A stretch of 64,000 bases of DNA from Branchiostoma floridae (Eukaryota; Chordata; Leptocardii; Amphioxiformes; Branchiostomatidae): the NCBI RefSeq assembly GCF_000003815.2, contig NC_049980.1:11400192-11464191 (forward strand), in the 5' to 3' direction. Position 1 is the first letter of the stretch. The number at the start of each line of letters is the position of its first letter. Below, one piece after another: positions 30,434-64,000 of the stretch. The translations under genes and the position numbers were made by a program. The notes beneath the pieces are model-generated. The model searched no databases and was not told the origin of the DNA. It worked only from the letters and a program-made list of their open reading frames with translations.

Positions 30434-30796
30434 ATGGAATTTAGGGTTGACGAAGGCCAAGGAGCATGTCAGCTTACAGTGAAGCTTCCATTGAAATGTC
30501 GTACATTCAATCCTAATCTGACAAATCATTTCATCGGGTACAATTGTGATGGTATCTGGGTCTCTTTTAGGTCCCATCCCAAAAATGGACCCATTAACTA
30601 TCAAGGACGCCAAGGAACAGTTATTCAACCATATCCACCCTATCAGTCACTTTTGTCAGTCCCAAATCATGGAAGGCCCGTAAAACCTCCCATGTCACGA
30701 CAGCTTTTAACAGCTCTTATAGTGGAAGAAATACTCGGAAGTACGAGCGTTCACATGGGCTTTACAATGATGAACGTCTCCCATTCACCAAATTGA
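30434..30796 (+). CDS. unrecognised 120-codon open frame
   Basis: A single uninterrupted frame from ATG to TGA. The translation contains no signal peptide, transmembrane segment or motif I recognise, and its sequence (a Pro-rich middle near residues 60-85) gives no clue to function. It lies between MITE copies and may be chance or a relic. Confidence 0.15.
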   Translation: MEFRVDEGQGACQLTVKLPLKCRTFNPNLTNHFIGYNCDGIWVSFRSHPKNGPINYQGRQGTVIQPYPPYQSLLSVPNHGRPVKPPMSRQLLTALIVEEILGSTSVHMGFTMMNVSHSPN

Positions 30797-31114
30797 CTTA
30801 AATATATTAGTCACTTTGCGATGTTATACTATGTGTGAAGTACTGATAGTGGGCACTTATGTTGACAAAAGTTTGGAACCCACACAAAAGATTGATTTAT
30901 ACACAGTAATACATCTCAATGTTGAGATGGTCCACTTCTGTGGAAGTAGTTAACTCCTGGGACAAATCTCTTTACCTGCAAAGCTGATTCATCTAAGCTG
31001 ATACTACACCAACTTAAACATACCAAAGCTATGGTTTTGCATATTATGTTTTTAAACAGCATCTTCACCCTCCGTGAGTAGATTCGTTAGGTTGGTACGT
31101 ACCTCAACGAAAAA

Positions 31115-41000: not shown

Positions 41001-42114
41001 GTTGGTTTTATTTGGCCGTTATGGTATTTAAAGGACCAGGTGTCTATATGACACCATAGATACCTCGGGGTGGGTCATGAACCCATAATTCATTATCTAA
41101 TAAAAATACTCCCACCTTCTCATCATGGGTGATGTTCACATTTTGTATGCAGTCTTCTGAGCCATTGAGAGCTGGTTGCTGGGTGTGGTTGACCATGGCA
41201 ACCAAGGCAATGGTGAGGTTGACCCTCATGGTGTACGCGTTCAGGAAGCCCAGAGTGGACATGATAGCCAGGCCATACCGACAAGACGTCCAGATTGGTA
41301 CTAAGGACACAGTGCAGATTAATTTACACCTGAACAAAAATGAACATTTTTCAAGGCCTCTGGCATTTGTATTAATCAAAATAAGCATGAGCATGCGCAG
41401 CGACAGGAACTCTGGGTATTATATGTAAAGGCCCCTGACTTATAAACAGTATTAGTTTCCACCATGATTATATCTTCCAGACATGTTTCATTTTATGTCT
41501 CTGGGGCCTTTACCTTTGACATACCCATTTTGCTGCACACTGGCGTATTAAGAATGATGAACGAGCTTATAGCACTTGACAAAACTTATTGACAGGAATC
41601 ACATACCTTCAAATACACTATCAAAGCAATACGAACATGTCCTGCAATAAGGACGTCAGTAAATCATTAACAGGAACTACTATGAAATTAGGGCAATTTT
41701 CTTTATAATCTTAGTACATAATATTTCTTGAAAGAATTTTGAATTTTCCACGTCAATGCACTGTGAATGTAACGTTGCGCCATTTGAGTTTGTCATTCTA
41801 TCTAGATCTTTATGGTTATTTCGCAACAACTATTGACAGTTTGAATGCAAAGATACTCTTACAGCCCTCCCCCCCCCCCCCCCCGACACACACACCGGTC
41901 AGCCATATTTAGAAAAAGTTGCAAATCTGCTTGCGCTTACTCAATTAAACCATTGCATTTGACAATACAAAATGCCTTAAAACGTCATATCAATGGATTG
42001 CGAGCGGTCAAGGGCAATTTTTGCCACTTTTGTGATTTGTTCTGCAGGCAAACCTTTTTCTGGAGAGCGTCTTGTCTTTTCCTTGTCCAGTAAAGGTTCA
42101 TTTTCGTCCGCCAT
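32070..42114 (-). CDS. sialin-like SLC17 family anion transporter, 12 exons, complete
   Basis: A major-facilitator membrane carrier of the SLC17 family, which moves organic anions (sialic acid, glutamate, phosphate) driven by proton or voltage gradients in lysosomes or vesicles. Exons, in order: 42054-42114, 41116-41300, 40382-40481, 39596-39729, 39035-39122, 38763-38849, 37989-38125, 37338-37487, 36774-36906, 35923-36073, 32802-32895, 32070-32282. All junctions are GT..AG and all phases match, giving 1533 bases and 510 residues, a normal length. Seen: dileucine signal ENEPLL (residues 4-9); CRYGLA then [14 protein letters not shown] in TM1; sequons at Asn58, Asn66 and Asn76 in the first luminal loop; GRFGGK; the signature [30 protein letters not shown] (His168); [10 protein letters not shown]; and a Lys/Asp/Gln-rich cytoplasmic tail. 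PAMHAMW and the dileucine signal point to sialin (SLC17A5) rather than vesicular glutamate transporters. The exact substrate cannot be read from the sequence. Confidence 0.95.
32517..32779. mobile_element. MITE, CCCTGTCACACA family, copy in SLC17 intron
   Basis: Carries CTCCTGACAAAGTTGG, then the TGGGTTGGGAGTAGCTTGG block, and at the right ACCATGGTCCGGAGAGGG followed by CGTGACAGAC, colinear with the copy at 4114-4408. Its right end stops about 22 bp inside the intron after the donor of the exon at 32802-32895. Confidence 0.65.
33465..33655 (+). mobile_element. probable SINE fragment
   Basis: Contains GGGGGTTCGACCCCAGGG, a good RNA polymerase III B box (33477-33486), then GACGTAAAGCCGTTGACCCC and GTATGAGGGAGCTTCAGGCA, and ends near CTTGAATAAAG. 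The A-box head is not clear, so this is probably a 5'-truncated tRNA-derived SINE in the large intron between exons 10 and 11 of the SLC17 gene. Confidence 0.5.
37590..37745. repeat. probable dispersed repeat in SLC17 intron
   Basis: A GC-richer block ending TGGGGGTTCTTTAACGTGCC, with a CATCATCATC run at its start. The style resembles dispersed repeats I know from invertebrate deuterostome genomes, but no second copy lies in this window, so the call rests on general resemblance. Confidence 0.3.
37769..37895. mobile_element. small MITE (127 bp), AGATTACGATC family
   Basis: Perfect 10-bp terminal inverted repeats TGTCACAGTA and TACTGTGACA. The interior contains three copies of the palindrome GTCCTAGGAC and two inverted CAATCGGC-type blocks. 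Its AAGATTACGATCCAGG start relates it to 29756-30067. It lies in the SLC17 intron between exons 7 and 8. Confidence 0.75.
38510..38710. repeat. degenerate AT-rich tandem repeat in intron
   Basis: Loose repeats of about 40 bp built on CTTGAGA..TTTGAAAG and CTTCAAGATGCTTT, lying in the SLC17 intron between exons 6 and 7. Diverged, non-coding. Confidence 0.5.
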
Positions 42115-43604: not shown

Positions 43605-44744
43605 TATACAGTAGAATTAATGTAATTATAGTCTCTTAATTACGTTATCTTCAACCTTACACAAGTGTGTGGAGTGCCAATCGTGAGTGACGTATTACCC
43701 TAGAATTCACAAACTTTTGGGAGCGGTTTAACTCCTTCTCTCGGCCAACTCCCTTGCCGGGATCCCCGGCATAGAGAACTTTATAACTAGCCCATGTTGA
43801 AAATCCCGAATCAGCGCTCCCAAAATAAACACCACCGCTCTGAATGTCTGTAATGGAGACTAGCATTACCCCACTCAGGTGAAGTACTTGTCATAAAAAA
43901 ATCCTATAGGACGGACTGAGACTCAATTTAGTACATTTAGGCCATCACTGGCAAGCTAATCAACAAATAAACAGATTAATTAGTACTTGGATTATAAAGG
44001 TAATGTTGTATGGCGTATTGAGAAGATTAGGATCCTCCCATGACATACAAGACTTGCTTTTGAAATAAGCAGTAACATTTTAAAGGGTATTTTTAGTAGC
44101 TGTAAGGAACGTGCGTCAGCATACATGTCAGATTTGACATACAACCCGCTGTTCTGTCGCTTATGGTGTTGACATATCATGGCCGTTACGTGACAGAACC
44201 ACTCCTAACTTGACTTTTGTCCGATGCATGAGATGGTCTGCCAAACGTCTTATATCAATATACCTACAGACGTGCTGTCACACCTTAAAACGTATTAGTC
44301 AGCGTACAAGGGGTCCCTTGGTTCTATTTGTTTACAAAATATGTCACTTTTGATCATTGTTTATTTGCTGACAGAAAAGATTAACTTTCATAACGACTAA
44401 ATTAATACACAGAGCTGCCTTTCTCTGTGTGATATTTTTTATACGGAATATGGCAAGCCTATACATGACGTTGGCAAGAAATGTCCAACAAACATTGCAT
44501 TCAGAACTACAGGTGAGGCGAAAAATAAACAGCACCACCTATTTGCCTGCTACTTCAGAATCGACTTCCCCTTGCGTACCGTCATAAAGAATGTGGAATG
44601 TCGGCGACGCCCTTGGTACTTTGTGTACTTTGAAAGGTGTAGCCAGTGTAGAAGTGACGTCTGGCTTTGGGTGCAACTACTGAACACTCACAGAGCGAGA
44701 GAGGCCCTTCGTAATACTAGTGCTGTTATCATTTGCTGTGTAAA

Positions 44745-47700
44745 ATGGCATCGTTAAGTCTGGCGAAATTGTTGACTGTGGTCTTTCTATGGGGATTAGT
44801 CAGCGGTTCAACAACATTAACACCGACTGGCAGTACAGGTACGTAGTTGCTTTGTTTTCACTTCTAACTTCGGGTGAAACTAGCGAACACCCGCAGAGCG
44901 AGATAGGCCCTTTCTCATAGTGCTGTTATCATTTGCTGTATGAAATGGCAACGTTACGTCTAGCGAAGTTGTTGATGGTGGTCTTTCTGCCGGGACTAGT
45001 ATGCGGTACAACAACCTTAACACCGAGCGGCAGTACAGGTACATAATTTACTTTCCTTCACGCCATGGATAGAGGAAGTGAAACCTGTATAGAATCCGGA
45101 GCCTTCTGTATATGTTCCAGCGTCTTATTCTGCCAGTGTTGAGAATGTGCAGTACGTTGCACTGATGTTTTAAACCAAAAGTTGTTTTAAAGTTGCGCTA
45201 GCTATAGCTGTCCGTTAGTGGGTACAAATCTATCAATATTTTCAGTACACGAACATGTTTACTTAGTAAACAGGGGATCGGATTCGCGAAAAAACACGAG
45301 TCACCTTTGGAAGAACCTGAAAACCAACGTCCACCGGCAAAACTGAAAAAAAAGCGGAATTTTCACCATGTAAAGCATGATATTAATTCGATCTATGAAG
45401 ATCAACCCGAAACAGAGAAACATGCAACGATACATTCCTAATAATCATCTAATAATGATTGTAAAGTGCCTCTGGACTTCACGACTGCACAGCGCTGGTC
45501 TGGCTAAAGCCTGTCTGTTGAGACCTGTCGTCTATAGCGGCAGTTCGGTCCCTCGAGTGGTCGTTTTGACAGGTTTGTAGGCAGAATTTGCAAGCGCTGA
45601 AACCGCACTGCAACACAAACATCGTAACTGTAGAATGTAGAGGGGTACGTCATGTGTCAGGAATGGCAACGTTGGGACACTTTTGTCCAAGGCACGATAT
45701 ACATAATATACTATGACGTCTGGTAACGCAAACGGATGTTGTCTACTATGCTAGTACTGTCATTGAAACTGGTAAATATCATTCTAACTTCAGGTGTAAT
45801 GACAACATCTGTGGGTGAAATGACGACAGCAGTAGGTGGCACAACGACAGCAACCGGTAGCGCAACGACAGCAGCAGGTGAAATGACGACAGCAGCAGGT
45901 GGCGCAACGACAGCAGCAGGTGGAATGACGACAGCAGCAGGTGGCGCAACGACAGCAGCAGGTGGAATGACGACAGTAGTAGGTGGCACAACGACAGCAA
46001 CAGGTGGCGCAACGACAACAGAGGGTGGAATGACGACAGCAGCAGGTGGCGCAACGACAGCAGCAGGTGGCGTAACGACAGCAGCAGGTGGCACAACGAC
46101 AGCAGCAGGTGGCGCAACGATAACAGCAGGTGGCGCAACGACAGCTGCAGGTGGCGCAACGACAGCAGCAGGTGGAATGACGACAGTAGTAGGTGGCACA
46201 ACGACAGCAACAGGTGGCGCAACGACAACAGAGGGTGGAATGACGACAGCAGCAGGTGGCGCAACGACAGCAGCAGGTGGCGTAACGACAGCAGCAGGTG
46301 GCACAACGACAGCAGCAGGTGGCGCAACGATAACAGCAGGTGGCGCAACGACAGCTGCAGGTGGCGCAACGACAGCAGCAGGTGACACAACGACAGCAGC
46401 AGGTGGCGCAACGACAGCAACAGGTGGCGCGACGACAACAGAGGGTGGACTGACGACAGCAGCAGGTGGCGCAACGACAGCAACAGGTGGCGCAACGACA
46501 ACAGAGGGTGGACTGACGACAGCAGCAGGTGGACTGACGACAGCAGCAGGTGGCGCAACGACAGCAGCAGGTGGCGCAACGACAGCAGCAGGTGGCACAA
46601 CGACAGCAGCAGGTGGCGCAACGATAACAGCAGGTGGCGCAACGACAGCTGCAGGCGACGCAACGACAGCAGCAGGGGGCGCAACGACAGCAGCAGGCGA
46701 CGCAACGACAGCAGCAGGTAGCGCAACGACAGCAGCAGTGGGCGCAACGACAGCAGCAGGTGGAATGACAACTCAGCCAGGTACATTTTAGAGCACGAGA
46801 AAACTGGCTACGATTATGAACATTATAAGTAAATAGTAAATATCTTAGGTATGAATATCTATAGATAGGCGTACAAAATTTGCGGAAAAAATATCTGTCA
46901 AACACACATTACCATTACATCCGAGCTAGCAAGCCAATGGCTCCAGCAAGGGAATCAGTTACATAGCTCTTCCAAATAGGTTTTGCTAGAATTCATATCG
47001 TCCAGTGTATGCACAGAAGAGTTCAATATACAACAGCAACTGATGCTGCTACTTACTTAGCCATACATGTGTTAAAACATTTCAACAGAGTCTACCACAG
47101 ACCAAGAGGGCGTAAGCAGCTCTCCCCAGGTCGATGAGCAGACGATCATCATCATCGCGGTTGTGGTGGCGGCCTCCGTACTTGTACTGGTGCTCGCGGT
47201 GACCGGGATAATTGTGTACATGCGCCGACATAACAAGTAAGTAAGACAACGTAGATAGCTCTATATTAGCATGGGTTTCAGCCTGTGAAAGTGAACTGAC
47301 GGAACATCTCTGGCTGTGGTGAAAATATTTGGATTGAATATTTTTCCGGACTTCATGTGAGCCTGTGCTTCAAAGCAGTCATTTATTGACCCTTTAATAA
47401 ACGTTACATGAAGAGAACTTTATTGCACGATAATTGTACACGGTACAATATATGGCAACAACTTTTGCACAAAGTACAAAATAAAGGTATAGAATAACGC
47501 TTAACATCTTAGTTAACATAGCAATAAGAACTAACATCATTTTGATATAGTATTACAAAAGAGTGGGCTAATCATTAGTATCAGTATTCCTTCTAAAGTC
47601 TGGTCTCTGATAGTTTGATCTCTGATAGTAAGATCCGACTGTGACAGAATGTTGGACATAATTTTCATAAAAACCCTTAATGAATTCAAAGTTACTTTTT

Positions 47701-47841
47701 TATAAATTATATGTGCATCCTTATACATTCATATTTCTGTTCCTGTTTGTATGTAACCCATAAACACTTTTATTGATACATAATCATTTTTTCAGGAGCG
47801 CCACCTTGTCATCTTCAAACGTTGAGTTGGCCCAGCGGTGA
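44745..47841 (+). CDS. mucin-like type I membrane protein, gene A
   Basis: Exons 44745-44838, 45794-46780, 47089-47236 and 47796-47841 join in phase (1, 1, 2) to give 424 residues. Residues 1-21 are a signal peptide (LAKLLTVVFLWGLVSG). Exon 2 encodes about 46 tandem heptads of the type TTAAGGA, rich in Thr for O-glycosylation and without N-glycosylation sequons. Exon 3 encodes a short Ser/Gln stalk and a transmembrane helix (about residues 380-404, IIIIAVVVAASVLVLVLAVT) followed by MRRHNK. Exon 4 adds the 14-residue tail SATLSSSNVELAQR. It is a bottlebrush-like cell-surface glycoprotein by architecture; no enzymatic or binding domain is visible. A second, equally usable first exon lies at 44945-45038. 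I cannot match it to a named gene. Confidence 0.85.
44945..45038 (+). CDS. alternative (duplicated) signal-peptide exon of gene A
   Basis: Exactly 200 bp downstream of the first copy, 94 bp long like it, and ending in the same CAGTACAG/GTAC donor at phase 1. It encodes a signal peptide with about three quarters identity (LAKLLMVVFLPGLVCG) and the same TTLTP(T/S)GSTG stalk start. The duplication includes about 75 bp upstream of the ATG (shared GTGCTGTTATCATTTGCTGT), so each copy may have its own start of transcription. It splices in frame to the repeat exon at 45794. Confidence 0.75.
45794..46780 (+). repeat. 21-bp coding minisatellite (gene A exon 2)
   Basis: About 47 units of GCAACGACAGCAGCAGGTGG-type sequence (21 bp, seven codons). 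A ten-unit, 210-bp higher-order block starting at 45961 is repeated almost identically from 46171, and parts recur again after 46390. Because the unit is divisible by three and lacks stops on either strand, long antisense frames also appear; they are by-products. Confidence 0.95.
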
Positions 47842-49453
47842 AAGTAGATTAGCAGCAGCCGGCATCTAATTTTAGCCCGACAGTTGGAAACGTTTATAGT
47901 CTGTACAATCAAATTTATGCACATATAAATGACAATACTTTCCTCAAAATGTTGTCCAAGGCCAGCTTAGAAAACTGACCAATTCTAACTAGAACTACAT
48001 CTATTTGTGATAAAGTTCTAAAGAGATACCAGTGTTTAGCTTTTAGGACTCAAACTAGAACTATTTATTATTCTTTTGTACCTTATCTAAGTGAGTACTG
48101 TAAATGCATCTATAAAATGTTTTGGGCATTGGTGATTTTGAAATGCTTCAAATTTGGGCGAATTTTTCTTACTTCAAGTTTTTTTTTGCATGGAGATTGT
48201 TATCATCATAAAAGATGACAAAAGATTAAAAGACAGCCGTCTTAAACTTTTCATTGTATCTTTATGAAAAGACAGACAATTGTTTTCTTTGGTATACACG
48301 TGTAAGTCATAGAAGCATAAAACCAAATATCTAATCAAATGAGAAGGAGAATATTACCCAGGTATAGGTCAGTAACATTTAAAAAAAAAGCGTTGCTGCG
48401 CTTGATAAAGGCACTTGCCGCATGCGAACAAATTGTCTGTGGCAGTATCTTAGCATACATAAACTAAGAGGTATTTCTTCTGCATCAAGATTGTAAAAGA
48501 CGTCGACAGGCGATCTGATGATAGATATAACCCGGGTTATATAATGATTGCATTATCTGTAAATTCTCTGTTGACGTCGGCCTACATGGATGTTATAATT
48601 CTACTTGGCATCCTTAAGTTTGCATTTACATGTACACAATTCGCTAGGTTCATACTCACTGTTTTCAATTTAAAGAATGATCTCAGATAATGGGAGAAAA
48701 CTATGTCTTGTTCCAGAAACACCAGCACAATTTGTGGTTCAGGGTAGTTAGTAACTATAGCAATGGCATGTAGATTCGTATCTATAAATAAAGTACACAT
48801 AATCATGCCTAACTCTTGCAAGGCCATATTTCCTGTGAGCAAATACTCGATTAGTAGTCCAAGATGTTTTCTTCAAATCAATATGAGTTCGAGTAATAAT
48901 TTATACACTATTAGAATTGGTTATTGCACAAATTAAGACAGCTATTCTCGTAAGATGACTAAGTCTGATACACTCTTCGCACTCTAACAAACATGCACAT
49001 TTCCATCCTCAACATTCATATTTATATGAAAAAAATGCAGCGTTAAATGTTTCGGTAAATATGCAGAATCGTAAGCACCAGGGTAGTACGTTACTCGTTA
49101 GTGTACAGAATACAATATAATAAAGACTTTTTTCTATATCCACGGAAAGTAACAATGGCGTTATGCCTTCAATTTATATTCTACAACCGGTTAACCGTCC
49201 ATGCTTAGAGACTCAATCACAACCAATTATTTTGATTCATCAGTCCTTAAATTAAGGTGATCTGCCGCACGCACGTATACGAAGGCCCTTAGCAACGCTT
49301 AATATAATGATGTCCACAATTTGGTTGCTATGGCGATGGACGTAAGCCATCATGAAAGCACGTTGGTTGCTAATGAAATTCAATATAAATGCCTGTGGCA
49401 TTTTGGAGATCTGAAAAGGTTTTACAGAAGTAATTGGGAACCAAGCAGTAAGG
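47842..49453. other. intergenic DNA between genes A and B
   Basis: Presumed 3' untranslated region of gene A followed by spacer; candidate polyadenylation signals AATAAA occur near 48786 and 49122. No further exon recognised. Confidence 0.4.
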
Positions 49454-52158
49454 ATGTACTGGACATTATGCTGCGTTTTATCTATTGTTGCTGTGCAGAG
49501 CACAGCATTTTCTACTCCTAACCCTCCTGGACAGAACACAACATCACCTGACGCTAACGTTACCGTGGCTAACGTCATCGCTACGACGGCAACAGACGGA
49601 GAGACAATGCCGCCAGGTAAGACAAGTCTGCTCATGCTCATCTCTCATCCGTCAGCGCACCACCGTTATCTTGCAGATGTTTTTGGAAAAATACTGTAAG
49701 TTTGATTTTTACACACTTTTGATAGATAAAATCGAGTAACGTGTTCTTGACCTGTCCTTGGTGCTGAAAAGTTATCATCTGAGTACTGCATGTAATAACC
49801 TCAAAATAAATTGTATTAGTTTCTGGAATCAAGAGCTACATTCACTGTTGAATTTTTGTATTGAAAGAGTACAACTATGGGGCTTGTCCCTGGTGCTGAA
49901 AAATCATCATATGGGTACCAACTTACAGTTTCTGGATTTTTTTCTACATTGTAATGTGAGCTCTTACGTATGTGCTTTTGGGGAAAATGACAAGATTGAC
50001 TGAGCATGTGTCCAAACACTTACTCGTAGTTAATGACCATTCTTTGAATTTTGCATGTTTTCAGCATAAATCATATATTTGCATGATATGTATTTGAATA
50101 CGTTGACTTTTTATCTGTTCCAGATGTACTTACAAGTATCCTGAGTTCAGGGGCCATTGCTGGTATGTTATTGTATGAAACCCGTATTAAGACCTATGAG
50201 AAAAAAAATTTGTCTGGTTACAGTCCTGAAAAATTCTCCTTTGTTCCTTTTTTAATTGACGGTAGATTCTAACCAAAGTAATGGAATAGACACAGTTGTA
50301 CAATGTCAAAGTAAAATGCACCAGGAAAAGGGTACATTCAACAACATCATATTGTAATTATATAAATATGACTTGTATAAAATGAAAGAAATACAAGCCT
50401 TACATCAAATATTCAAAGCCGCTTTCTGCTCATAGACTGTGAAGTACAGACTGTTGAAGAACCTTTGAGTCCCTTTGTTTATCAAATTTCAGATCAGAAG
50501 TGTCATGTCGCTTGCCGGCAGTAAATCCAAGACCCTGAAATAGGGCCAGGGTCGGTAGGCTTTTGTCAGGATTGGTCGGGTAGCCGGAAACATTACTGTA
50601 TAACAAAAGTTGTCGACATTGCAAATTCTGAGATAAATAACATCAATAAAAGATCAAGTAGTATTTTCAAGAAATCCTTCAAAATATGGTAGATCTTTCT
50701 AAAATCTAATTTATCACATATTTGAATGTAAGTTTTATCAGCCCGGAGAGTATGANNNNNNNNNNNNNNNNNNNNNNNNNNNNNNNNNNNNNNNNNNNNN
50801 NNNNNNNNNNNNNNNNNNNNNNNNNNNNNNNNNNNNNNNNNNNNNNNNNNNNNNNNNNNNNNNNNNNNNNNNNNNNNNNNNNNNNNNNNNNNNNNNNNNN
50901 NNNNNNNNNNNNNNNNNNNNNNNNNNNNNNNNNNNNNNNNNNNNNNNNNNNNNNNNNNNNNNNNNNNNNNNNNNNNNNNNNNNNNNNNNNNNNNNNNNNN
51001 NNNNNNNNNNNNNNNNNNNNNNNNNNNNNNNNNNNNNNNNNNNNNNNNNNNNNNNNNNNNNNNNNNNNNNNNNNNNNNNNNNNNNNNNNNNNNNNNNNNN
51101 NNNNNNNNNNNNNNNNNNNNNNNNNNNNNNNNNNNNNNNNNNNNNNNNNNNNNNNNNNNNNNNNNNNNNNNNNNNNNNNNNNNNNNNNNNNNNNNNNNNN
51201 NNNNNNNNNNNNNNNNNNNNNNNNNNNNNNNNNNNNNNNNNNNNNNNNNNNNNNNNNNNNNNNNNNNNNNNNNNNNNNNNNNNNNNNNNNNNNNNNNNNN
51301 NNNNNNNNNNNNNNNNNNNNNNNNNNNNNNNNNNNNNNNNNNNNNNNNNNNNNNNNNNNNNNNNNNNNNNNNNNNNNNNNNNNNNNNNNNNNNNNNNNNN
51401 NNNNNNNNNNNNNNNNNNNNNNNNNNNNNNNNNNNNNNNNNNNNNNNNNNNNNNNNNNNNNNNNNNNNNNNNNNNNNNNNNNNNNNNNNNNNNNNNNNNN
51501 NNNNNNNNNNNNNNNNNNNNNGTCGGATGTATGAATTTTGATTTGGTTCAGTTCAACTTGATCAGAAGACTGATCTAAATCTTGTTGGTAAACGCTTAGT
51601 TTTGTGTACGGATAGTTATAATTCTTAAAAATGTAACATTATCACATATTCATTTCCTCAGGAATAGCGGTCGGTAGCGTGGCAGGAGTGGCGCTGATGA
51701 TTGTAGGAGTCATCGTGTGTGTCTTCATGTGTGTGACGGCGTGTACCAAGAACAGGTCAGAGGTCATCGCGTTTGAAATGAACCCTTTCTACTTATAACA
51801 AATAAGTGTTTTGTTAAAGAAAACTAAATAATGGGTTCACGCAAAGAGCGTCGCAAAAAAGATATAGAAGATTTTATCTTATTGATCATAAGAGCTTCAA
51901 TCTTTATACATGTCTGTGTGCTTGCCAGAAACCCATATATTGATATGGCAGATACATTTTATAATTTTGAGTTGTAACTGATATGAAATTGTAAGAAACG
52001 CATTTACAGTAGCTGGTCAATCGGTTTATGTATACTAGCTTGATTGACGTTTAAAGTGTACGAAATCACCTTTATGATACCTGTATTAATGAACAAATGT
52101 AATCATTTACAGGCAAGTGTCACCGAGGACGTCTGCAGTGAACTTGGGCGATGTGTAA
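49454..52158 (+). CDS. small mucin-like type I membrane protein, gene B (may lack exons in a gap)
   Basis: Exons 49454-49616, 50124-50162, 51662-51755 and 52113-52158 join in phase (1, 1, 2) to give 113 residues. Residues 1-18 form a signal peptide (CCVLSIVAVQSTA). The ectodomain is short, Thr/Pro-rich, with sequons in PGQNTTSPDANVTVAN. Exon 3 encodes the transmembrane helix (GVALMIVGVIVCVFMCVTAC). The last exon is 46 bp, the same length as in gene A, and gives the tail QVSPRTSAVNLGDV. The intron before exon 3 contains a 766-base N gap, and since both flanking junctions are phase 1, any number of phase 1-1 repeat exons could be hidden there. The real protein may therefore be longer. Confidence 0.75.
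50756..51521. other. assembly gap (766 N)
   Basis: Unknown sequence inside the gene B intron upstream of the transmembrane exon. Frames that run through it are meaningless. Confidence 0.99.
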
Positions 52159-54700
52159 CAGCATCAGCCTTCGTCACAAAAATCGTTGATTGCAAACCCT
52201 TCTGACAAGTAGTTGCAAAAACGATGGTAACATAACTCAAAACCTGTTGTTTTATCAATTGTAGTGGCCTAAATGTACATTTTTAATGTTCCATAGGGAA
52301 GTCGTAATCGTTTTTCGTTGATACCAGATTAGTACGTTCAAACATCATCAGGGCTTATATGTGGGAATATGACGGCTAGGGAGCTAAGGACACATACCAA
52401 TTAGACTTCGACTCCAACTCTTTCGGATGCACCCTGAACCCTATGCGTTTGACATACACTACTCGTATAATGGAATCTTGGTATGTCATCGATGGTAAAA
52501 ACAACAGCACATTTTGAACAGTTCAGTTATCTTATACGTATATCATTGAATTTGTGGGAAGATGTCAATGAGGCTCCCAAGAAAAGTTATGATTACCGCA
52601 TTTTATTGCTGTGCCTGTTTGTAGATAGATGCAGGTGGACAGTAGGACAATGAGAACATGAATTTGGAAGTTAAAGCATGTACCATGCAGCTGTAAAAGT
52701 GTGGCCGAGACAAAGTAAAGCAATGTTGATTATTCAGCAACTCATGAATGCACTGTTGTTTTATTTTCTTTTGCAGGGTTGTTCTATTTTTTTTGGGGGG
52801 GGGGGGGGGGTCATGCCAGTCACTTACTTATGTNNNNNNNNNNNNNNNNNNNNNNNNNNNNNNNNNNNNNNNNNNNNNNNNNNNNNNNNNNNNNNNNNNN
52901 NNNNNNNNNNNNNNNNNNNNNNNNNNNNNNNNNNNNNNNNNNNNNNNNNNNNNNNNNNNNNNNNNNNNNNNNNNNNNNNNNNNNNNNNNNNNNNNNNNNN
53001 NNNNNNNNNNNNNNNNNNNNNNNNNNNNNNNNNNNNNNNNNNNNNNNNNNNNNNNNNNNNNNNNNNNNNNNNNNNNNNNNNNNNNNNNNNNNNNNNNNNN
53101 NNNNNNNNNNNNNNNNNNNNNNNNNNNNNNNNNNNNNNNNNNNNNNNNNNNNNNNNNNNNNNNNNNNNNNNNNNNNNNNNNNNNNNNNNNNNNNNNNNNN
53201 NNNNNNNNNNNNNNNNNNNNNNNNNNNNNNNNNNNNNNNNNNNNNNNNNNNNNNNNNNNNNNNNNNNNNNNNNNNNNNNNNNNNNNNNNNNNNNNNNNNN
53301 NNNNNNNNNNNNNNNNNNNNNNNNNNNNNNNNNNNNNNNNNNNNNNNNNNNNNNNNNNNNNNNNNNNNNNNNNNNNNNNNNNNNNNNNNNNNNNNNNNNN
53401 NNNNNNNNNNNNNNNNNNNNNNNNNNNNNNNNNNNNNNNNNNNNNNNNNNNNNNNNNNNNNNNNNNNNNNNNNNNNNNNNNNNNNNNNNNNNNNNNNNNN
53501 NNNNNNNNNNNNNNNNNNNNNNNNNNNNNGGTCATTTACGTCGATGGAGGTCAGACATTTAGGTGATGATATACACCAAAAAGCCGAGTTACTCCAGCAA
53601 CTGGGTATAATTTTCGAAAGGGTCATTTAGTTGAAAAAAAAAACACCTTTGGAGATGATTGTTGATTTTTAAGCAAGTGAGGAGTTTTAAAAAGATCTGA
53701 GGAGGAGTAAGTGTCATTACTAAGGGATCAAAGATATAACGTGTTATTTGCTTAAGTTGTAGTGCCTAAATAGAAGCACACAACGACTACTGCACATCTA
53801 TGAATATTGACGTATGATTTATAGCATAGATTTTTAACCTAATAAGACTGGAGTGCATGTACTATATTCAGATACCTTAAGTTGATTTATTATCGTGACC
53901 TAAATGTAAAGCAGGTCAGCTATCTACATTCTTGAAGAGTTCATCAGTTGCATAGCTACTGCATCAGTGTATCAGTGTAATGGTGATGATATAGTGTGAC
54001 TTCCGGCAAAACTGGCAAACACGAGCTCGTATGTACGTATACGTAGTCAGTAGCGTCGGTGCACAAATCACATTTCGGGGCATTATTATTAAGTACAAAT
54101 CTTTCAATGAATGTCTACAAAAATTACTTTCCATGTGACACCACCTTTATTATTATCATATTAAACCTTAGATGAGAGAGAAAGAAAAACATTGAGCTGT
54201 GACCTAAGGTGTGCGAGTCAGCTTGCTATGCTGGCTTCTTTCTAGTTGATATACGAATGAAATCCTAATCAAACATTTTGACAATGTCTTCAAAGATTTC
54301 ATGGCACGATCCACAGCTTATCCTTGTTTTCTCTCGTCAATTAACGTTACATATTTCATTTGAAAAAAAGATGTTTACTGAAAAATAATCGGACCTTGAT
54401 GAAATTGGTAGATATTGATCAAAAGCTTTCTACTTATTTTTGATAACTATACCCCGAAATTTGAGTTGTGTGGTTTATTTTTAGCGTGAAGTCACCAACA
54501 CCTGACTTTTCGCTGTACGGTAGTGTCATAGCAACTAGGGCGGTGGTCTACAATTGTGTGAAGGTTACGACACATAAGCGTACACGTGAAAGATGTCATT
54601 AGATTGATTCATCTCTGCGGTGGGTCTAATATGGAGCTTACATATGGCGTAACTCGGGGGCAACTTTGATATTTTCCCTGCAAATGCAAATGAATGTCAT
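52159..54700. other. intergenic DNA between genes B and C, with a gap
   Basis: No exon recognised. A run of about 20 G at 52791-52810 stands just before the second gap, a likely cause of the assembly break. Confidence 0.4.
52834..53529. other. assembly gap (696 N)
   Basis: Unknown sequence in the spacer between genes B and C. Confidence 0.99.
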
Positions 54701-54874
54701 CCCATGCCATAGTTACCATCGAAGATACCGCTGTTTTTGACAAACAGATTAGTGGCCACAGGTCAACAATACGGTGGGGTTGTATGCTCAAAACATGTGA
54801 CATCCACCATTATATGTCGCCAGTCACAGTATAGGACATCGTTTGAGATAGACTCTACAGAACGAGTCTTAAAG

Positions 54875-55565
54875 ATGATGTCCTCCACGTGCACAGTGTT
54901 CATGTTGATTTGTGCGTTGTCCACTTCTAGTGCACAGTTCGGCTTCGGTACTAAGCCCCCGTCTCCATCGACGCCACTGATAGTACTCACGACCACTGTT
55001 TCCACTCCGAATTCGAAGTTGCCGACTACTTCAGCCGACCAGCTGACAACCACACAACAGGAAGAAACTACACTACCTGGGCTAACAACCGAAATCGGTA
55101 CCCCTGAAGCGGAGACTGCCACGGTTACAGCGCCTCCTGGTACTGAGAGTACCACGGACTACAGCAGTCCTTCTATACAGGGGTTACAGGCATGGGAAAT
55201 CGCTCTTATTGCAGCCGGGGCGAGTCTGGCCGGAATACTCGTCATTGCAGCAGTTGGATACGGTATCTACAAAGCATGTAGGAAACGTAAAAGGTGTGTC
55301 TACTGTATGGTACATAACATGCATTTTTTTAGTACACGCTAACGTTGTTTTGATGTGGATATTTATAATTTAGATGGCTCCAAAATGGACAAGTTACAGT
55401 TTCAGTGAGACGTTAAACCATCACAGTAACATTTTTGTCCTTGTAAGAACGAAAAAGAAAAATGAATTTTATGTACATTCCCTACTATTGCGTCCATTAA
55501 TGTTGAAATTATCCTGCAGGGCCCGAGTCGGTTCCCAGCATGAGATGGAGTCACATGGAGAATGA
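54875..55565 (+). CDS. mucin-like type I membrane protein, gene C
   Basis: Two exons, 54875-55293 and 55520-55565 (phase 2 junction), give 154 residues. Signal peptide about residues 1-21 (TVFMLICALSTSSAQ), Thr/Ser/Pro stalk to about 100, transmembrane helix about 107-132 (WEIALIAAGASLAGILVIAA), then CRKRK and a short tail ending HEMESHGE. It is a close paralogue of gene D: the motif PPGT.STT.YSSPS..GLQ.WEIALIA is shared. Unlike D, signal, stalk and helix are in one exon; TTLPG, which ends exon 1 in D, runs straight on here. The start ATG is chosen by alignment to D; a second ATG follows at once. The tail is shortened by a frameshift relative to D. An AATAAA at 56274-56279 may serve as polyadenylation signal. 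Confidence 0.85.
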
Positions 55566-56676
55566 CAGCAGAGTGGCTCCAGACAGCAGCTGTCCTCGTC
55601 TGCTTCAGGTCAATGAACTGTACAGACATCACTGAATAGTACACGATTTGAACAAAAATAAGACGGCTACTCCATGTCTGTAACATGTAATATACGTGAT
55701 GAGGGCTTTTTATATGTCGATTAGACGACGCTTTAAATCTTACGATTTAGTTGTTGTGCTATATCTTGAGTTGCTTGACATTGTTTAGTGCCATGTGATG
55801 TGACGTGTTATCTGCACGTGATTGACAGGCAGCAAGGAGCCATGGCTCAGCTGAGCACACAAACGTGTACTGTATAACGCATCAATCAGTGGGATTTTAA
55901 TCAGACACTCAAGTCCGATGACTAACGGGAGGTTAAGAGCTGGATCCCTGCCGTTATTACACGTGGGACCAGTTGAGGAAAACTTTAAAACTTACAACAC
56001 CGGTTACCGCATCACTAGTCATACGCTAACGGGCTCGTCAATGAGACGTCGCCAAAAGCTTTGCGTTCATTATTACAAGGGCAGGGTTGCTAACTTGGTG
56101 ACAGAGTATACGCAACATTATATATAGATAAATACTAGATAGATGTGACGAAGAATTAATGTAAAAATTGATCAACTTTTCTATAATCATTTATTTTCCA
56201 AATCACTGTACCTACTTTTGTGTGTCTATAGTTGTAGAAGACCATACGAAAGTACCTGTACTTTTGTTGCGACAATAAAAAGTTAGTCTTTATGTAACAA
56301 TGGGAAGACGATTTTGAATACAGCATGCGAATTTAGAGTAAAATATACCATATCGTGGCAGTTAAAGTCAGATTTCAACGCTTACAATTTATATTCATCT
56401 GACAAGGCGAGTTCTTAACATTTATTTTCGATTAAGTTTTAACTTTTTTCTAAGGAAAAAAATAATCTTGCTACTGTAGCTATAGAACCTAATCACATTC
56501 ATTTATTACAGGCAGTTGAAAAGCACTCACAGACACAGCTATGTTATATATGGCAAGCGTCTGTGCTGCCTTCAGACCGACTTTGCAGAAATATTTCCGT
56601 GGTTTCAATAGCGAGAAGACCTTTCATTGTACATCCTTGTCCCAATGGGATAAGCAAAGGTTATGTGTTAACAATC

Positions 56677-56701
56677 GTGTACATATACATATACATATAC
56701 G

Positions 56702-56779
<78 letters not shown>

Positions 56780-56870
56780 TATACACATGCACATGCACAT
56801 GCACATGCACATGCACATGCACATGCACATGCACATGCACTTGCACACGCACATGCACATGCACATGCAC

Positions 56871-56901
<31 letters not shown>

Positions 56902-56904
56902 TAC
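56677..56904. repeat. hexamer microsatellite, alternating purine-pyrimidine
   Basis: Successive blocks of (ACATAT)n, (ACACAT)n, (ACATGC)n and again (ACACAT)n. The whole 228 bp alternates purine and pyrimidine with only one break (ACTTGC near 56840). Long His/Met or Tyr/Thr open frames here are artefacts of the repeat. Confidence 0.95.
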
Positions 56905-57748
56905 TCTCTTCTTGGAAATGGCATAAATGTAGTACAGCAGGCTGTATGATTAGTTAGACTTAAAGCTGGTTTATCGAGGGCTGTAATGAATATTAAGATC
57001 TTATGTATGTTAACGTTACTTAACTTTGCGGGAGGCCCATGGCACGGATCCCAAGGCCAGGCAAACTATCCGCATCAGCGTGCAAACACGCGAGCTAAGG
57101 AGAGAGCGAACTTTAGCCTGGGAGCAAATCAACTGATAAGAAGTCCATTGTTTTGCTGACTGCAGGTGCATGCACTTTTTGAAATAGTCGCTAGATGTCT
57201 CTAGATTTTTGCGTGTATCCGTCATTGCATCCAAATCAGAGACGCGCTCACTGCTTCATACGTGTAGCTATCAGTAGACATGATATGACACGACACGATG
57301 CTCGAACATATCTTAATGAATTTCAGACTGCATGTAACTTTTTCTCTGGAAATTTTGTTTCAAAATGACATCTGTAGTTTCCATATGGACCGTGAAGAGA
57401 AATTCAAATTTGACATGCATTTCCCAGAAATTGGATATGTGCGTCATACAGGAGTTTGTATAGCTCATACGGGTTAGTTTGGACAGGCTTTATGATGATA
57501 ACGTGAAAGGGGCATTCTACAACAGATGGGAGTGATATCTTCCGGTTAATATTAATTTTAGGAAGTAATAAATGCATACTACTTCACATTATACGATAAA
57601 GCACCCATTAGCCCCACGCGCATCAAAAATGATTCAGTCTTCTAGTAGACTCCCCAATTACCCTAGCCTCTAATCAATCTAAGCCTATGGGTGAATACGT
57701 AATGTACTTGACAATGCCAGACTTAAGTTAGGTTACAATACTAATTTC

Positions 57749-57836
57749 AGGAGCGCTAAGCAAAACTCTTCTTGTTCGGTGTTCTTTGATATCTACTGAG
57801 CAATTAATTGGCCTTCTCGGTGTGCTTAGCGCTCCT
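57749..57836. mobile_element. small inverted-repeat element (88 bp)
   Basis: AGGAGCGCTAAGCA at the left is perfectly mirrored by TGCTTAGCGCTCCT at the right. Non-coding. Confidence 0.75.
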
Positions 57837-58572
57837 CAGATCATGCATTCCAAAAATATGCACGATAAACGAAGTGTCTATATGCATAGAGAATGCAAGG
57901 GTAGGGTCTGTATGGGTTTAGGGAGTGCCATGTTATTTCACAATACAGACATCGCGTAATTCACCATAAGTGGAATCCCGCAAAAGGTCGGCTGATTATG
58001 TATTAATTGATACGTTATCTATTGAAAAATAACACTCCCTTCTGGAGTGGAATGCCTTTTTAATGACCCGTCTATTCCTCGGTGTTTACGCTGTACGGCA
58101 TATACACATCGGGTTGGCTCATTAACTCTTAATCAAATGGGTGATTATATTACCTTTTAATCACAAGACAAATGCAAAGAGTATGTTTTTCTTATCAGTG
58201 TTTTTGTGTGCATGGAAATGTGTAGGCTGAGTGTGTTTGAGTGGCTTGATACAACGGAGGAAATAAATTAGATAAAGAGATGGCTAGCATTCTTCTGTAT
58301 GAACGACCATATATGTTTGATACATGTTCCTGTATATGTGTACTATGGCAACAGGATGGTGTTGTAAAAATTGTATGAAGGATATGACATCGTGCTTGTG
58401 ACAGATACCACGTGATTGATGTATGGAGAGGAGGAATACACCGCGTACACAGTCGCTGGGCAGTGATGGTGATATTTCCATTAGCAACACAAATAGATAC
58501 CGCTTCACGCCATAGTTACAGTTGAAGATATCGCTGTTTTCGACAAACACTGTGGTTACCACGGGTGAACAG

Positions 58573-58580
58573 TATAAAAG
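58573..58580 (+). promoter_or_regulatory. TATA box of gene D
   Basis: TATAAAAG, 112 bp before the chosen ATG (58685), preceded by a block conserved with gene C. At the equivalent place gene C has AATACGGTGGGG (about 54768), so the box is lost or never formed there. Confidence 0.65.
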
Positions 58581-58684
58581 GGTTGTACATCCCAGATAAA
58601 TAAGATAACGTCGGATATTCCATCTTGCTAGAGGGACAGTGCTACAAGCTGTTTAAGATGGGCACCAATCCTAGGCGTTTAAAG

Positions 58685-60112
58685 ATGGTCACGTTGACAG
58701 TTTTTGTTTTCTTGTGTGCGTTGTCTATGTCAATTTCGAGTGCACAGAGTACATTCTCTTCTCCAGCGACCGCCCAAACCATCCCTGTCGCTACCACTTT
58801 GAATTCATCAACTTCTCCGGGGCCTACAGCTGCCAACACAACTTTACCAGGTAAAGTAACGTCACCCCCTAGGTGTCCTGCATTTTTTTGTTGTTGTTTG
58901 CATCAACCTCTAGTTTTTCCTTCTGTGTGACAGTATTTCTAACAAAAAGAATCTGTTTTGAATTGTAAAAACATCAGCGATGACGGCGACCACTGTATCC
59001 TTGCCGCAATTGCCGACGTCTTCTTCTTCAGCGGAACAATCGACAAATACGCCACAGGACAAGTCTACGGCAGGAGGATCACCTACAGCACTGCTCTTGA
59101 CTACCGTACAAGATGAAAGTACAACACAGAACTCAACTACATCACAGAGTGAAACTACAACATGGGGCTCACCTACCGCACAAGATGAAAGTACAACACT
59201 GGACTCAACTACAACACAACCGACTGAAACTACAACATGGGACTCATCTACAGTACTAGATGAAAGTACCGTGGCACAGGACTCAAGTACAACACAGGAC
59301 TCAACTACAACACAGGACTCAACTACAGCAGAAGATGAGAGTACCTCAACTACAACACAAAGTAAAACCACAACATGGGACTCAACTACAACACGGAGCG
59401 AGACTACAACATCGGTCCCAACTATAACAAAGAGTGAGGCTGCAACATGGGAGTCAACTACGGCACGGCATGATGAAGCTACAACACAGGACTCAATTAC
59501 AGCTCATGAATCAACTGCAACGCCGGCTGGTACTACAGCAAGGGACTCAACTACAGCATCAAGTGGAACTACAACATGGGGTCCAACTACAACACTGGCT
59601 GAAAGAACATCACAGGGGGCAGCTACAGCACAGGCGGAAACCACTCCACATGGCGAAACTACACAACGGAAATCAACTACACCGAGTACCGAGACCGACA
59701 CAGTCACAGTTCCACCTGGTACTGCGAGTACCACGGGTTACAGTAGTCCCTCTGTGCCAGGGTTGCAGACCTGGGAGATCGCTCTTATCGCTGTGAGCGC
59801 AAGTCTGGGTGGGATACTCATCATTGCAGGCTCGGCGTTTGGTATCTACAAAGCACTTGGAAAACGTAAAAGGTGTGTCTTCTATACTTCTTACTACTTC
59901 TATGTAACTTTGTTGTATGTTTCTGTCCATGTAGATTAGTATCAAATCATATTTGCGTCACAAACGTCAAACGTAAAAAGATGCTTATGGGGTGTTTATA
60001 TATCATCTGCAGCGCCCGTGTCAGTTTCGAACATGAGATGGAATCGCAAGAAGATCAGCAGCGGAGGGCCAGCTCTGGACAGCAGCTATCCTCGCCAGCT
60101 TCAAATTACTGA
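58685..60112 (+). CDS. mucin-like type I membrane protein, gene D
   Basis: Exons 58685-58850, 58978-59872 and 60013-60112 join in phase (1, 2) to give 386 residues. Signal peptide TVFVFLCALSMSISSAQ; stalk of about 300 residues made of loose repeats of 10-13 residues (TTTWDSTT, TTQDSTT, SETTTW), very rich in Thr and Ser for O-glycosylation; transmembrane helix about 321-346 (WEIALIAVSASLGGILIIAG); then KALGKRK and the tail SARVSFEHEMESQEDQQ-RRASSGQQLSSPASNY. RRASS is a consensus site for basophilic kinases. An in-frame ATG at 58658 could add nine residues, but alignment with gene C favours 58685. A TATA box lies 112 bp upstream. No named orthologue recognised. Confidence 0.88.
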
Positions 60113-62022
60113 ACTGTCTGCAGTTCGCCCTGAAAGACAAGACAAATTGAACAAATAGTAAGATCAGATTTGTCAAGGACATGATATACCAGTGAGAGTA
60201 AATAGTTTGTAAATTTGACAATTGGATTGTTACTATTATATATAAAGTTATTCAGCATTGTTAAGTTGTCAGGAATTATGACATCTTATCTATGTTTTGA
60301 TTGACAGGCCAGTAGGACGCTCGGACTAATCCATGCGTACACATACATGTTTATCAAACAACATATCAATCACATCAGGTTTTTAATGAGAGTCTTAATT
60401 ACGATCATTAATGATACTTTGAGTGTGCATTGATTGAATCACATCCATTAAGTAGGATTAGATGAAGAAGCCAATATGAACGGAAATGACTCATTTGTAA
60501 AACCTGGAATTTGCAATGATAAGGGCTGAGATAGTACCAAATTATGTAAAGATTTGTATTCATATAACGTTACTGTTAGGTAGATAGATTGGTCGATTTG
60601 CATTAGTTGTGATAATTGAGCTATTTCTTCTGATACTGGACCCATTAAACAATATATGCAATCATTAAAACGTCTACATGTCAGCAATATGTAATGTCAA
60701 AAGCTCATCATTTGTCTTATCTTTGTAACAATGGATATTAAAGAGAAGTGGAGGGAACATTCATGGAAAATTATTCACGACGTCTATGTTGTATCACTGT
60801 TTTAAATTTGTAAAAATAGCACTGGTTACATATAGTGACATTGTTATTAATGTTCATGTACACAACTCCTATTGTTGTCCATATTTGTGGAACGCCCAAC
60901 CCAACGCATCTCAAGGCTAAGTAAACTTGCTTTGCACATCAGTATATACACACAAGCGATTGGCAGAGGGAGAACTGTAACCAATAAACAAATTAACTGA
61001 TAAAAAGTCCATTAAACACGTTGACCTGGAGGTATCTGGAGTTTCCGAAGTCCTCGCCATAGGTCTCTTGTGTAAAAAAAAAAAAAGAAGTCAAACACAA
61101 CCTGTTTAGAAATAGCCAACACTAGTATTAGATTAGAATATTGTTTATGACTGTCCATTGTCACTATGTGTATACCATGTACTTGCAATTAGCCCTCGGG
61201 CACGAACTTGCAAATAAACTTCTATTTGTTGTTTTTTTCCTTTTTTTTCAGATACTATATTACACTTTCGTGCATGCAGATGTAACTCAAAGTACATGTA
61301 TGTCAACTGATTCATTGTTGCATCTGATGACAAAACTAGATGTGATAAATGCGAACAGTTAATCCACTGGTAACTATTGAGTCCACAAAGAAACCATTAT
61401 TGTAAAGTAGCAGTAGATATGTGTATATTGTCCTTCACAACAAAGCACTGTAAATTAAATTGTGCCTGTACTTTTGAAATATGTCGCCAGATGTCGCTTC
61501 ACTAATATACACATTTCTTTTGACGTAGCTTCTTACCGCTTGACTTGCGTGAGCGACCCGGTGCAGGTACGACCAACATGAAAACAAACAGGAAGAATAT
61601 TGCATGGAGGCTCGGCCTTTTCTGAAGCAGGGCAAATATTGTTTAACAGAAGAAACCCATTAGCAATCTAGCATTGTCTCTATAAACCTTTCGGTACATC
61701 AAACAGACTATCGATGTATTTAATTGCTCACATGGAATTGTTTGACCAGGAAAAAATAAAAAATAAAGAATTAAGAAGTCGTGTCTTGATGAGCCTCACA
61801 AATCTAAATTACCGCGATCGCATTCTCGTGTGTTTATGAAATTTCAGTGTACTGTAAAGACACATTGTTCAGATGCGGATGAGGAAATAACTGGATTTCT
61901 ACAGCTGTATATGCCTATTCGTTATTGATCGGTTAAACGCCGATGAAAGAACGGAAGAACGGAAGAAGAAGTATTGACACGGTTCGAACCCCGGTCGCAG
62001 GGTTTGTTTTTCAGCTGGCGTT
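60113..62022. other. 3' region of gene D and spacer to gene E
   Basis: Contains the downstream part of duplication unit 2. Open frames here are short and unsupported. A GGTTCGAACCCC block at 61980 resembles a pol III B box, without a matching A box. Confidence 0.4.
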
Positions 62023-62030
62023 TATAAATA
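62023..62030 (+). promoter_or_regulatory. TATA box of gene E
   Basis: TATAAATA, 143 bp before the ATG at 62166, with no in-frame upstream coding. The position suits a 5' untranslated leader of about 110 bases. Confidence 0.5.
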
Positions 62031-62165
62031 TACATATGCATAGATCAGCAGAAGGTGGTGACAGAATAAATTGTCTCAAAATATGGTCGAGTGAGCAACG
62101 TACTGAATCAAGACGGCGTGTTGTCTGCTCTCGAGGAAAGAGTTTTAGGAAAGATTGGTACAACG

Positions 62166-64000
62166 ATGAAGCTTTGCGCATATTGGAAGCTACTGTTGCT
62201 GTGGTGCTCGGTTTGTAACGGGCAGACTACAACAGAAGTCACAGCACTTGCCACCACCAACGATACTACATGGAGCCTCACGTCTGGGACAACGTGGGAA
62301 CCGACAACAGAAACCATAACTGTGACGGGCATATCCACCACCGACGCAACATATGCCCCTGGCTCTAATACCTTCCCCATTCCTGCTCAAACCACCCCAA
62401 CGACAAATGTAACTGATAACGGAACGACGGATGGCAACAACACGGCCGCTACTACAACAGTTGGCACCACCAGTGATACAACGGTGGAACTGACAACCAT
62501 TCTCGATACAACGGCAAACCCAACCGAAGCTGCTACGTCCTTTCTGACCACCCCAGTCAGAAATGTAACTGACAACGGAACGACGGATGGTAACAGCACG
62601 GCCGCTGCTACAACAGTTGGCACCACCGAAAATACAACTGTTCAATTGACAGCCATTCCCGATACAACGGCAAACCTAACTGAAGCTACCACGTCCTTTA
62701 CCAATGCCGCTTCAAGTTCACCCGGGCCCAATCTTACCACCCCAGTGGCAAACGTAACTGATAACGGAACGACGTATGGTAACTATACGGTTGCTAATAC
62801 TACAACATTCGGCACCACCGATAGTACAACAGTTGAATTGCAATTGACAACCATTTCTGATACAACGGAAAACCCGACCGAAGCGACCACGTCCTTTTTC
62901 AATGCCCCTCCAAGTTCAAACGGGTTCATTCTTACCACCCCAGTAGCAAACGTAACTGATAACGGAACGACGGATAGTGACTATACCACTGACACTACCT
63001 CAGTTGATACCACCGATAATACAACTGTGGAACTGACAACCATTCCCGATACAACGGGGGAAGCAACCGAAGCGGCCACGTCCTTAACCCATGTCGCTTC
63101 AAGTCCACCCATGCTGTCCAATACAACGACAAATGCAACTGGCAACGGGACAACGGGTGGTAACAATACTGCCCCAACAACCACCATAGCAGTAGGTACC
63201 AACGACAGTACAACTTGGAGCAACACCACTAATGGTTCATTGACTACTTGGGAATCAACGTCGCCCATGATCAACACAGCGACACCTGTTGATTCTTCGG
63301 TATCAACTTTTCCGAACGAAACAACACCAACTGATTATGGGACAACGACTGGAGACATAACAAGCGCAGCTGATAATACTTCAACAACGTGGGCCTCTAC
63401 GACCGTCTTCGGTGTAACGTCAAACGAAACCACGACAGACATGTCCTACACCGACACCACATCGGACACAGAAAACACAACATCTGTCACTGACACCTGG
63501 TCTTCGGAATCAACTCTGCCGGGCGACCCAACGACAGAAGCAACTGCATATGAAACGACGGATTGGAGCACGGCAACCGAAGCCGCAGAACCTGAAACAA
63601 CATTTGACACTCCGCCAAACACCATCACAGCAGCTATGACCACAAATGTTACAACAGACACGATTATCAGCACAGCAGAAGTTAACACCGTCACTGGGGA
63701 TGGTATCACATCGGTATATACCAACGGATCTGAAACAACAGACCTACACATGACAACAGTGAACGTACCTACACCGACTCCAAATCCTGTTATGACAGCA
63801 GTGACCACAGAGATTACAACGGACACGACTGACAACACAACAGTCAGTACAACCAACGAAACTATCACGGTCCCTACTTCATATGAAACAGCAACCCCGA
63901 TTACAACACCGACTGAACCTAAAACAACATTGTCTGCTACATTTGAAACAACGCCCCCAGAAGCAACGCCTTACACACCTGAAACAACACCTTCAGAAAC
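62166..64000 (+). CDS. mucin-like secreted or membrane glycoprotein, gene E (3' end outside window)
   Basis: One uninterrupted frame of 611 codons from ATG at 62166 to the window edge, with no intron or stop. Residues 1-19 form a signal peptide (LCAYWKLLLLWCSVCNG). The rest is about one third Thr, with many Asn-X-Thr/Ser sequons. From residue 81 a module of 52-66 residues starting NVTDNGTT is repeated five times (about residues 81, 133, 196, 262 and, degenerate, 322), each including a TTVELTTI.DTT core. After about residue 340 the sequence becomes irregular Thr/Glu/Pro-rich (ETTP, TTDTT). No cysteine-rich, EGF, VWD or transmembrane domain is seen in the visible part. It is a heavily N- and O-glycosylated extracellular protein; membrane anchoring is unknown because the C-terminus is missing. 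Confidence 0.85.
   Translation, partial: MKLCAYWKLLLLWCSVCNGQTTTEVTALATTNDTTWSLTSGTTWEPTTETITVTGISTTDATYAPGSNTFPIPAQTTPTTNVTDNGTTDGNNTAATTTVGTTSDTTVELTTILDTTANPTEAATSFLTTPVRNVTDNGTTDGNSTAAATTVGTTENTTVQLTAIPDTTANLTEATTSFTNAASSSPGPNLTTPVANVTDNGTTYGNYTVANTTTFGTTDSTTVELQLTTISDTTENPTEATTSFFNAPPSSNGFILTTPVANVTDNGTTDSDYTTDTTSVDTTDNTTVELTTIPDTTGEATEAATSLTHVASSPPMLSNTTTNATGNGTTGGNNTAPTTTIAVGTNDSTTWSNTTNGSLTTWESTSPMINTATPVDSSVSTFPNETTPTDYGTTTGDITSAADNTSTTWASTTVFGVTSNETTTDMSYTDTTSDTENTTSVTDTWSSESTLPGDPTTEATAYETTDWSTATEAAEPETTFDTPPNTITAAMTTNVTTDTIISTAEVNTVTGDGITSVYTNGSETTDLHMTTVNVPTPTPNPVMTAVTTEITTDTTDNTTVSTTNETITVPTSYETATPITTPTEPKTTLSATFETTPPEATPYTPETTPSE

Follow-up and report, generated by a model that had tools for sequence, protein, structure and literature searches.

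MUC21 has been described as a protein with a tandem-repeat domain, a stem, a transmembrane (TM) region and a cytoplasmic tail (PMC11199685). It was reported to lie with MUC22 in one mucin gene cluster at human 6p21.3 and to act by steric hindrance (PMC10588101). At human 7q22, the type I membrane mucins MUC3A, MUC3B, MUC12 and MUC17, structurally related and carrying tandem repeats, were reported to lie in a tandem cluster, and the same report states that the SEA domain of membrane mucins emerged in vertebrates (PMC9578598). For the 'orphan' mucins, mucin function was reported to have been gained repeatedly via in-frame repeat expansion (PMC12776774). In this work, an array of mucin-like genes was analysed in a 64,000-base stretch of the lancelet Branchiostoma floridae (contig NC_049980.1, 11,400,192-11,464,191). 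This whole stretch is called the window and all positions are given in its numbering. An initial annotation had read five adjacent plus-strand genes (A to E) there.

The array was real, larger than first described and of a known general kind: at least eight genes on the same strand (A to H) were distributed over about 38 kb and continued past the window end. In design it was closest to MUC21/MUC22, which are likewise clustered membrane mucins, MUC21 having repeats, a TM region and a tail; this likeness was one of design, no sequence relation having been seen. The lancelet array differed from that pair in its gene number, in the very short length of some members and in a Cys-rich block in G and H. 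Like the MUC3 cluster, it consisted of tandem type I membrane mucin-like genes, but unlike that SEA-bearing cluster, no SEA domain was found by Pfam at E up to 1 when A to D were scanned whole and F, G and H in their C-terminal parts. In contrast to the 'orphan' mucins, the lancelet genes were clustered, partly shared their anchors and had one stalk repeat in common. We consider it fairly probable that at least eight small genes for type I membrane mucin-like proteins are arrayed here in tandem, SEA-less in the parts scanned, and that their products would form an O-glycosylated barrier brush; the cluster is probably lineage-specific. Such a SEA-less cluster in an invertebrate chordate would be useful for comparative work on the origin of surface mucins.

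Layout of the array

Flanks of 100 kb from contig position 11463000 onward and of 50 kb upstream were added to the window, and the gene models were obtained by joining exons at GT/AG splice sites with open frames. All five genes of the initial annotation were rebuilt in this way, spanning 44745-47841 (A), 49454-52158 (B), 54875-55565 (C), 58658-60112 (D) and 62166 to the window end (E). Beyond position 64000, where further members had been thought possible, a probable tail exon of E and three more plus-strand genes were found, namely F (68202-72017), G (74261-76616) and H (80612-82525). The rebuilt models and the downstream members together supported the earlier reading of the locus as an array of small genes for mucin-like type I surface proteins.

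The content of Thr plus Ser in the ectodomains was 35.4% in A, 28.6% in B, 36.5% in C, 47.2% in D and 42.2% in E, and Cys was absent from all five. Repeats were present in the stalks of A, D and E, and were recognised by eye in F. A single TM helix with a cytoplasmic tail was detected by hydropathy in A to D and was read from the gene models in F, G and H. A 19-residue hydropathy mean above 1.6 was reached by the signal peptides of A and D only, while those of B, C and E showed shorter hydrophobic cores by eye. When the window was scanned for Thr/Ser-rich stretches (30%, 60 amino acids), 15 were obtained, and the two located before A (1794-1985 and 30598-30798) were not judged members. A scan of the 50 kb upstream at 35% gave three stretches, none of which was judged an array member.

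The common strand and the compatible exon phases would also agree with one large mucin gene with alternative ends. However, separate start codons were found, the seven TM segments were each followed by their own stop, and TATA-like elements were located before five of the eight starts, which argues for separate genes as initially annotated. We regard the single-gene explanation as extremely improbable. The elements lay 51-170 bases upstream of the start codons of B (49384-49390), D (58573-58579), E (62023-62029), G and H, against a background of 0.107 (binomial P 0.0006, a somewhat flattering value because the range was set with the elements of B, D and E already known).

Structure of the individual genes

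Exon 1 of gene A (44745-44838) encoded the signal peptide and ended in phase 1. The self-comparison of the window, from which pairs within the A array, within the microsatellite at 56660-56910 and wholly before 44000 were omitted, placed this exon and its upstream sequence in a duplicated block (44657-44848 and 44860-45048) with 81% identity over 192 aligned bases. Since the start codon and the GT donor were kept by both copies, the second one (44945-45038) is a possible alternative first exon. The stalk exon (45794-46780, phase 1-1) carried 46 Thr-rich heptads encoded by a 21-bp repeat. It contained a 238-base exact repeat at lag 210, and this pattern indicates that the stalk was probably expanded recently. 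The TM exon (47089-47236, phase 1-2) and a 46-bp tail exon with the stop codon (47796-47841) completed the gene.

Gene B consisted of exon 1 (49454-49616) with the signal peptide, a short Thr/Ser-rich part and a phase 1 end, a 39-bp exon 2 (50124-50162), a TM exon ending in phase 2 (51662-51755) and a 46-bp tail exon with the stop codon (52113-52158). The description of B as a mucin was hardly borne out by the sequence as read, in which the ectodomain had 49 amino acids with the lowest Thr plus Ser content of the five (28.6%), but a stalk exon could be hidden in the 766-base assembly gap (50756-51521) which lies in intron 2 between phase-1 exon ends. A and B had also been said to share a 46-bp last exon. 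The length was confirmed and was likewise 46 bp in C, but the agreement was one of length only: 19/46 bases matched (shuffle p 0.01), and the tail peptides showed no significant similarity (p 0.08).

In gene C, the signal peptide was not on a separate exon; the signal, stalk and TM helix were all encoded by exon 1 (54875-55293, phase 2 end), which was followed by a 46-bp tail exon (55520-55565) shorter than that of D. Gene D contained exon 1 (58658-58850, phase 1 end), an exon for stalk and TM helix (58978-59872, phase 1-2) and a tail exon with the stop codon (60013-60112). As had been proposed, the two genes were paralogues, which had in common the anchor, the tail exon and a block upstream of C (54703-54784, plus strand) that was 75.6% identical to 58506-58587 upstream of D. 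The C tail (55514-55621) was homologous to the D tail (60007-60117), and the frames parted after HEMES, so that C ended early. The anchor DNA of C and D was 76.5% identical over 196 bases, and the mismatches at codon positions 1, 2 and 3 numbered 7, 12 and 25 (of 61, 61 and 60). Because the mismatches were mostly at third positions, with a nonsynonymous rate (dN) of 0.17 against a synonymous rate (dS) of 0.87 and a dN/dS of about 0.19, the C/D anchor is under purifying selection as judged from these substitutions.

Exon 1 of gene E (62166-64000) encoded the signal and the stalk in 611 codons and was open to an assembly gap (64001-65471) which begins directly after the window end and cuts the gene. 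An exon at 65870-65975 (plus strand), open in phase 2 and by eye also in a second frame, is probably the tail exon of E; the TM helix would then sit in the gap. The E ectodomain contained 32 N-glycosylation sequons compared with 17.7 in shuffles, and none of 2000 shuffles reached 32. The E repeats varied most at third positions, with 120/461 vs 98/464 and 68/464 at the other two (overlapping pairs, not independent).

Beyond the window, the signal, stalk and TM helix of F were all encoded by one 3284-base exon, while G and H had five and four exons, respectively. A small Cys block was common to G and H, with 6/6 Cys in register without gaps and 12/33 identities. Its score was reached by 150/20000 shuffles in which Cys was fixed and by 0/20000 full shuffles.

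Comparison of anchors, stalks and exon phases

The exon phases stated for A to E were confirmed. The TM exon ended in phase 2 in A, B, C and D (4/4), and the last intron was in phase 2 in all seven genes in which it could be compared (A, B, C, D, F, G and H). The signal exon, where separate, ended in phase 1 in A, B and D, and this applied to all five genes with such an exon when G and H were included. The stalk exons of A, G and H were of phase 1-1.

The anchors of seven genes were compared in 21 pairs with 5000 shuffles, E being excluded owing to the gap at its TM position. Four of the 21 pairs were strong (C-D, B-H, G-H and B-G, each reached by at most 2/5000 shuffles). Three were weak and failed correction (C-H, D-F and C-G, reached by 20, 24 and 35 of 5000 shuffles), and the A anchor matched none of the six others (B, C, D, F, G and H). 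On these counts, a common origin of all the anchors was not supported. The anchors of C and D were clearly paralogous in this comparison, and those of B, G and H probably so. As TM similarity is unspecific, the B/G/H grouping also rests on features outside the helix: the end point of B exon 2 before the helix matched that of G exon 3, the tails of B and G both started with NR-QV, VSP occurred near the tail start in B and H (all by eye), and the Cys block was present in G and H. A tail motif shared more widely was not supported either, being clear in C/D and otherwise suggested only by F-G (p 0.014) and D-E (p 0.017), both uncorrected among 28 tail pairs.

The stalks told a different story from the anchors. 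The 21-bp stalk repeat of A was also present in H, with a score of 59.9 bits compared with at most 37.4 in 200 codon shuffles. The DNA of the two stalks scored 56.3 bits over 49 codons, a value reached by 0/400 heptad-column permutations and 0/300 synonymous recodings. Since this repeat was common to two genes with unlike anchors, stalks have not in every case been inherited with their anchors, a separation that would be permitted by the phase 1-1 stalk exons present in A, G and H. The initial annotation had described conserved anchors with stalks that turn over. As stated, this was not supported: anchors were related in C/D clearly and in B/G/H probably, but the A anchor matched no other in the array while its stalk repeat recurred in H. 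By these comparisons, a mosaic in which some of the anchors and some of the stalks are shared fits better than constant anchors with changing stalks. The pair A/H (common stalk repeat, unlike anchors) and the pair C/D (common anchor, unlike stalks) would allow the separate evolution of stalk and anchor to be tested. Taken further, the locus might be a modular mucin cassette, in which symmetric phase 1-1 stalk exons are swapped and expanded among neighbours with different anchors. We hold this to be possible but rather unlikely. If it were true, stalk and anchor would evolve independently, and the surface brush would vary between individuals in height, charge and glycan type.

Several observations weigh against the reading of the locus as a mucin-like array with related members. 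B and C were short and without repeats, and no TATA-like element was found within 51-170 bases upstream of A, C or F. The two copies of A exon 1 differed at codon positions 1, 2 and 3 by 6, 3 and 7, with no clear third-position excess. The D stalk repeats varied least at third positions (96/471 vs 132/461 and 123/464), so that purifying selection on the D stalk was not supported. As a control for the TM comparison, four TM exons (W1-W4) of receptor-like genes downstream of the array were added, giving 55 pairs in total. These TM segments from outside the array scored as high as the members, with a z of 4.9 for B-W3 and 4.8 for B-H, 4.2 for A-W3, and 3.8-4.3 for the group F-W2, A-W3, B-W2 and H-W1; TM similarity was therefore discarded as proof of the B/G/H relation. 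Hidden Markov models of B/G/H matched their own members by construction, and their best outsider was W3 (E 0.00028), ahead of C (0.0041). The TM helices of this region may commonly resemble one another, or else the array and the receptor-like genes may share an old TM module. Phase 2 was likewise discarded as a family mark, for W1-W4 also ended in phase 2 at the frame-end consensus donor (4/4); other donor-like matches, in other phases, fell within the last part of the helix in W1 and W2. Phase 2 may be favoured by Arg/Ser codons split after AG. Finally, the search of the own genome with the H anchor missed G and B, which indicates that distant members escape such searches.

Some of these observations would also be expected if the frames were kept open merely by the repeats, or if the genes were decaying pseudogenes, with no protein function in either case. 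The A array read open in several frames on both strands, the C tail was truncated relative to that of D, and the D stalk lacked the third-position excess. Against this stood the low dN/dS of the C/D anchor, the sequon excess of E, and the stalk frames of E and F, which stay open over long distances, and we judge this explanation to be very unlikely.

Proposed function

In the preferred reading, each gene of the array would be read from its own start, and its product would enter the secretory pathway via the signal peptide. The Thr/Ser-rich stalk would be O-glycosylated, and that of E is predicted to be N-glycosylated as well. The protein would stand on the cell surface by means of one TM helix and a short tail, and the stalks would form a glycocalyx, acting as a non-adhesive, hydrated brush that differs in height and charge from member to member. 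Such a brush could keep microbes, particles and other cells off the epithelium. Repeat expansion may drive the evolution of the stalks, together with the swapping of phase 1-1 stalk exons between neighbours. A steric, hydrated epithelial brush thus appears the likeliest role on present analysis. Lancelets were reported to feed with mucus nets and to possess chitinous gut membranes (PMC6109156), which makes an epithelial role plausible. In RNA-seq of Branchiostoma belcheri, a 'mucin-like protein 1' was reported among the genes most induced after poly(I:C) (PMC5752451).

CD43, PSGL-1 and CD34 are adhesion or signalling sialomucins, with whose way of working the lancelet genes may be compared. 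Under this alternative, the main one, the array would encode sialomucins carried by blood-like or immune cells, with sugars recognised by lectins and basic tails attached to the cell cortex, and not an epithelial barrier. The short tails with basic residues beside the helix would suit it, the small Cys-rich block of G and H could bind a partner, and genes that encode WSC domains and tails rich in Tyr are found downstream. However, inspection of the tails by eye, without a motif search, revealed no signalling motif, and no Pfam match above the cut-off was obtained in the parts scanned. Sialomucins of this kind seem an unlikely explanation compared with the barrier brush.

Domain, genome and literature searches

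No named family had been recognised for these genes, and in agreement, nothing above the curated cut-off of Pfam was found in the parts scanned. VWD and related cysteine-rich domains of gel-forming mucins were absent from the Pfam scan of A to D. The anchors of C and A gave only matches at E 0.42 or worse in the PDB, and no Rfam match was obtained in the window. The own genome (513,431,437 bases in 431 contigs) was searched with three anchors: the C anchor found C and D only, the B anchor found B only, and the H anchor found only H at E below 0.04. Four weak matches of the H anchor (E 0.045-0.54) were rejected as relatives, as the largest open reading frames (ORFs) there were not mucin-like by eye. 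These searches would speak only for locus-specific anchors in the lancelet's own genome. In viral contigs, 18 pattern matches to the C anchor were obtained, none of which was a relative. Among the papers listed by the literature searches, no title or abstract described this locus, and the available portions of PMC5787515 and PMC7269912 contained nothing on these genes.

Neighbouring genes and minor observations

The receptor-like genes downstream of the array, at about 118764-154867, included ORFs with many Tyr motifs, and their TM exons ended in phase 2. WSC domains (PF01822) scored above the Pfam cut-off in two downstream ORFs, and a third WSC ORF was recognised by eye. From their position, W1-W4 may be part of these WSC-domain genes, and no WSC ORF was seen beside W1. 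Upstream of the array, two minus-strand ORFs (35919-36200 and 41047-41418), the only two searched, both matched sialin (SLC17) in the PDB. Pfam gave no match at E up to 0.01 in ten upstream ORFs of the window, including four of the minus-strand transporter, and both sialin-matching ORFs were among the ten. Between C and D, a hexamer array (TACACA and related) of 225 bases was located at 56680-56904. In the whole window, TAACGTTA occurred 14 times when both strands were counted, compared with 1.8 occurrences expected from base composition.

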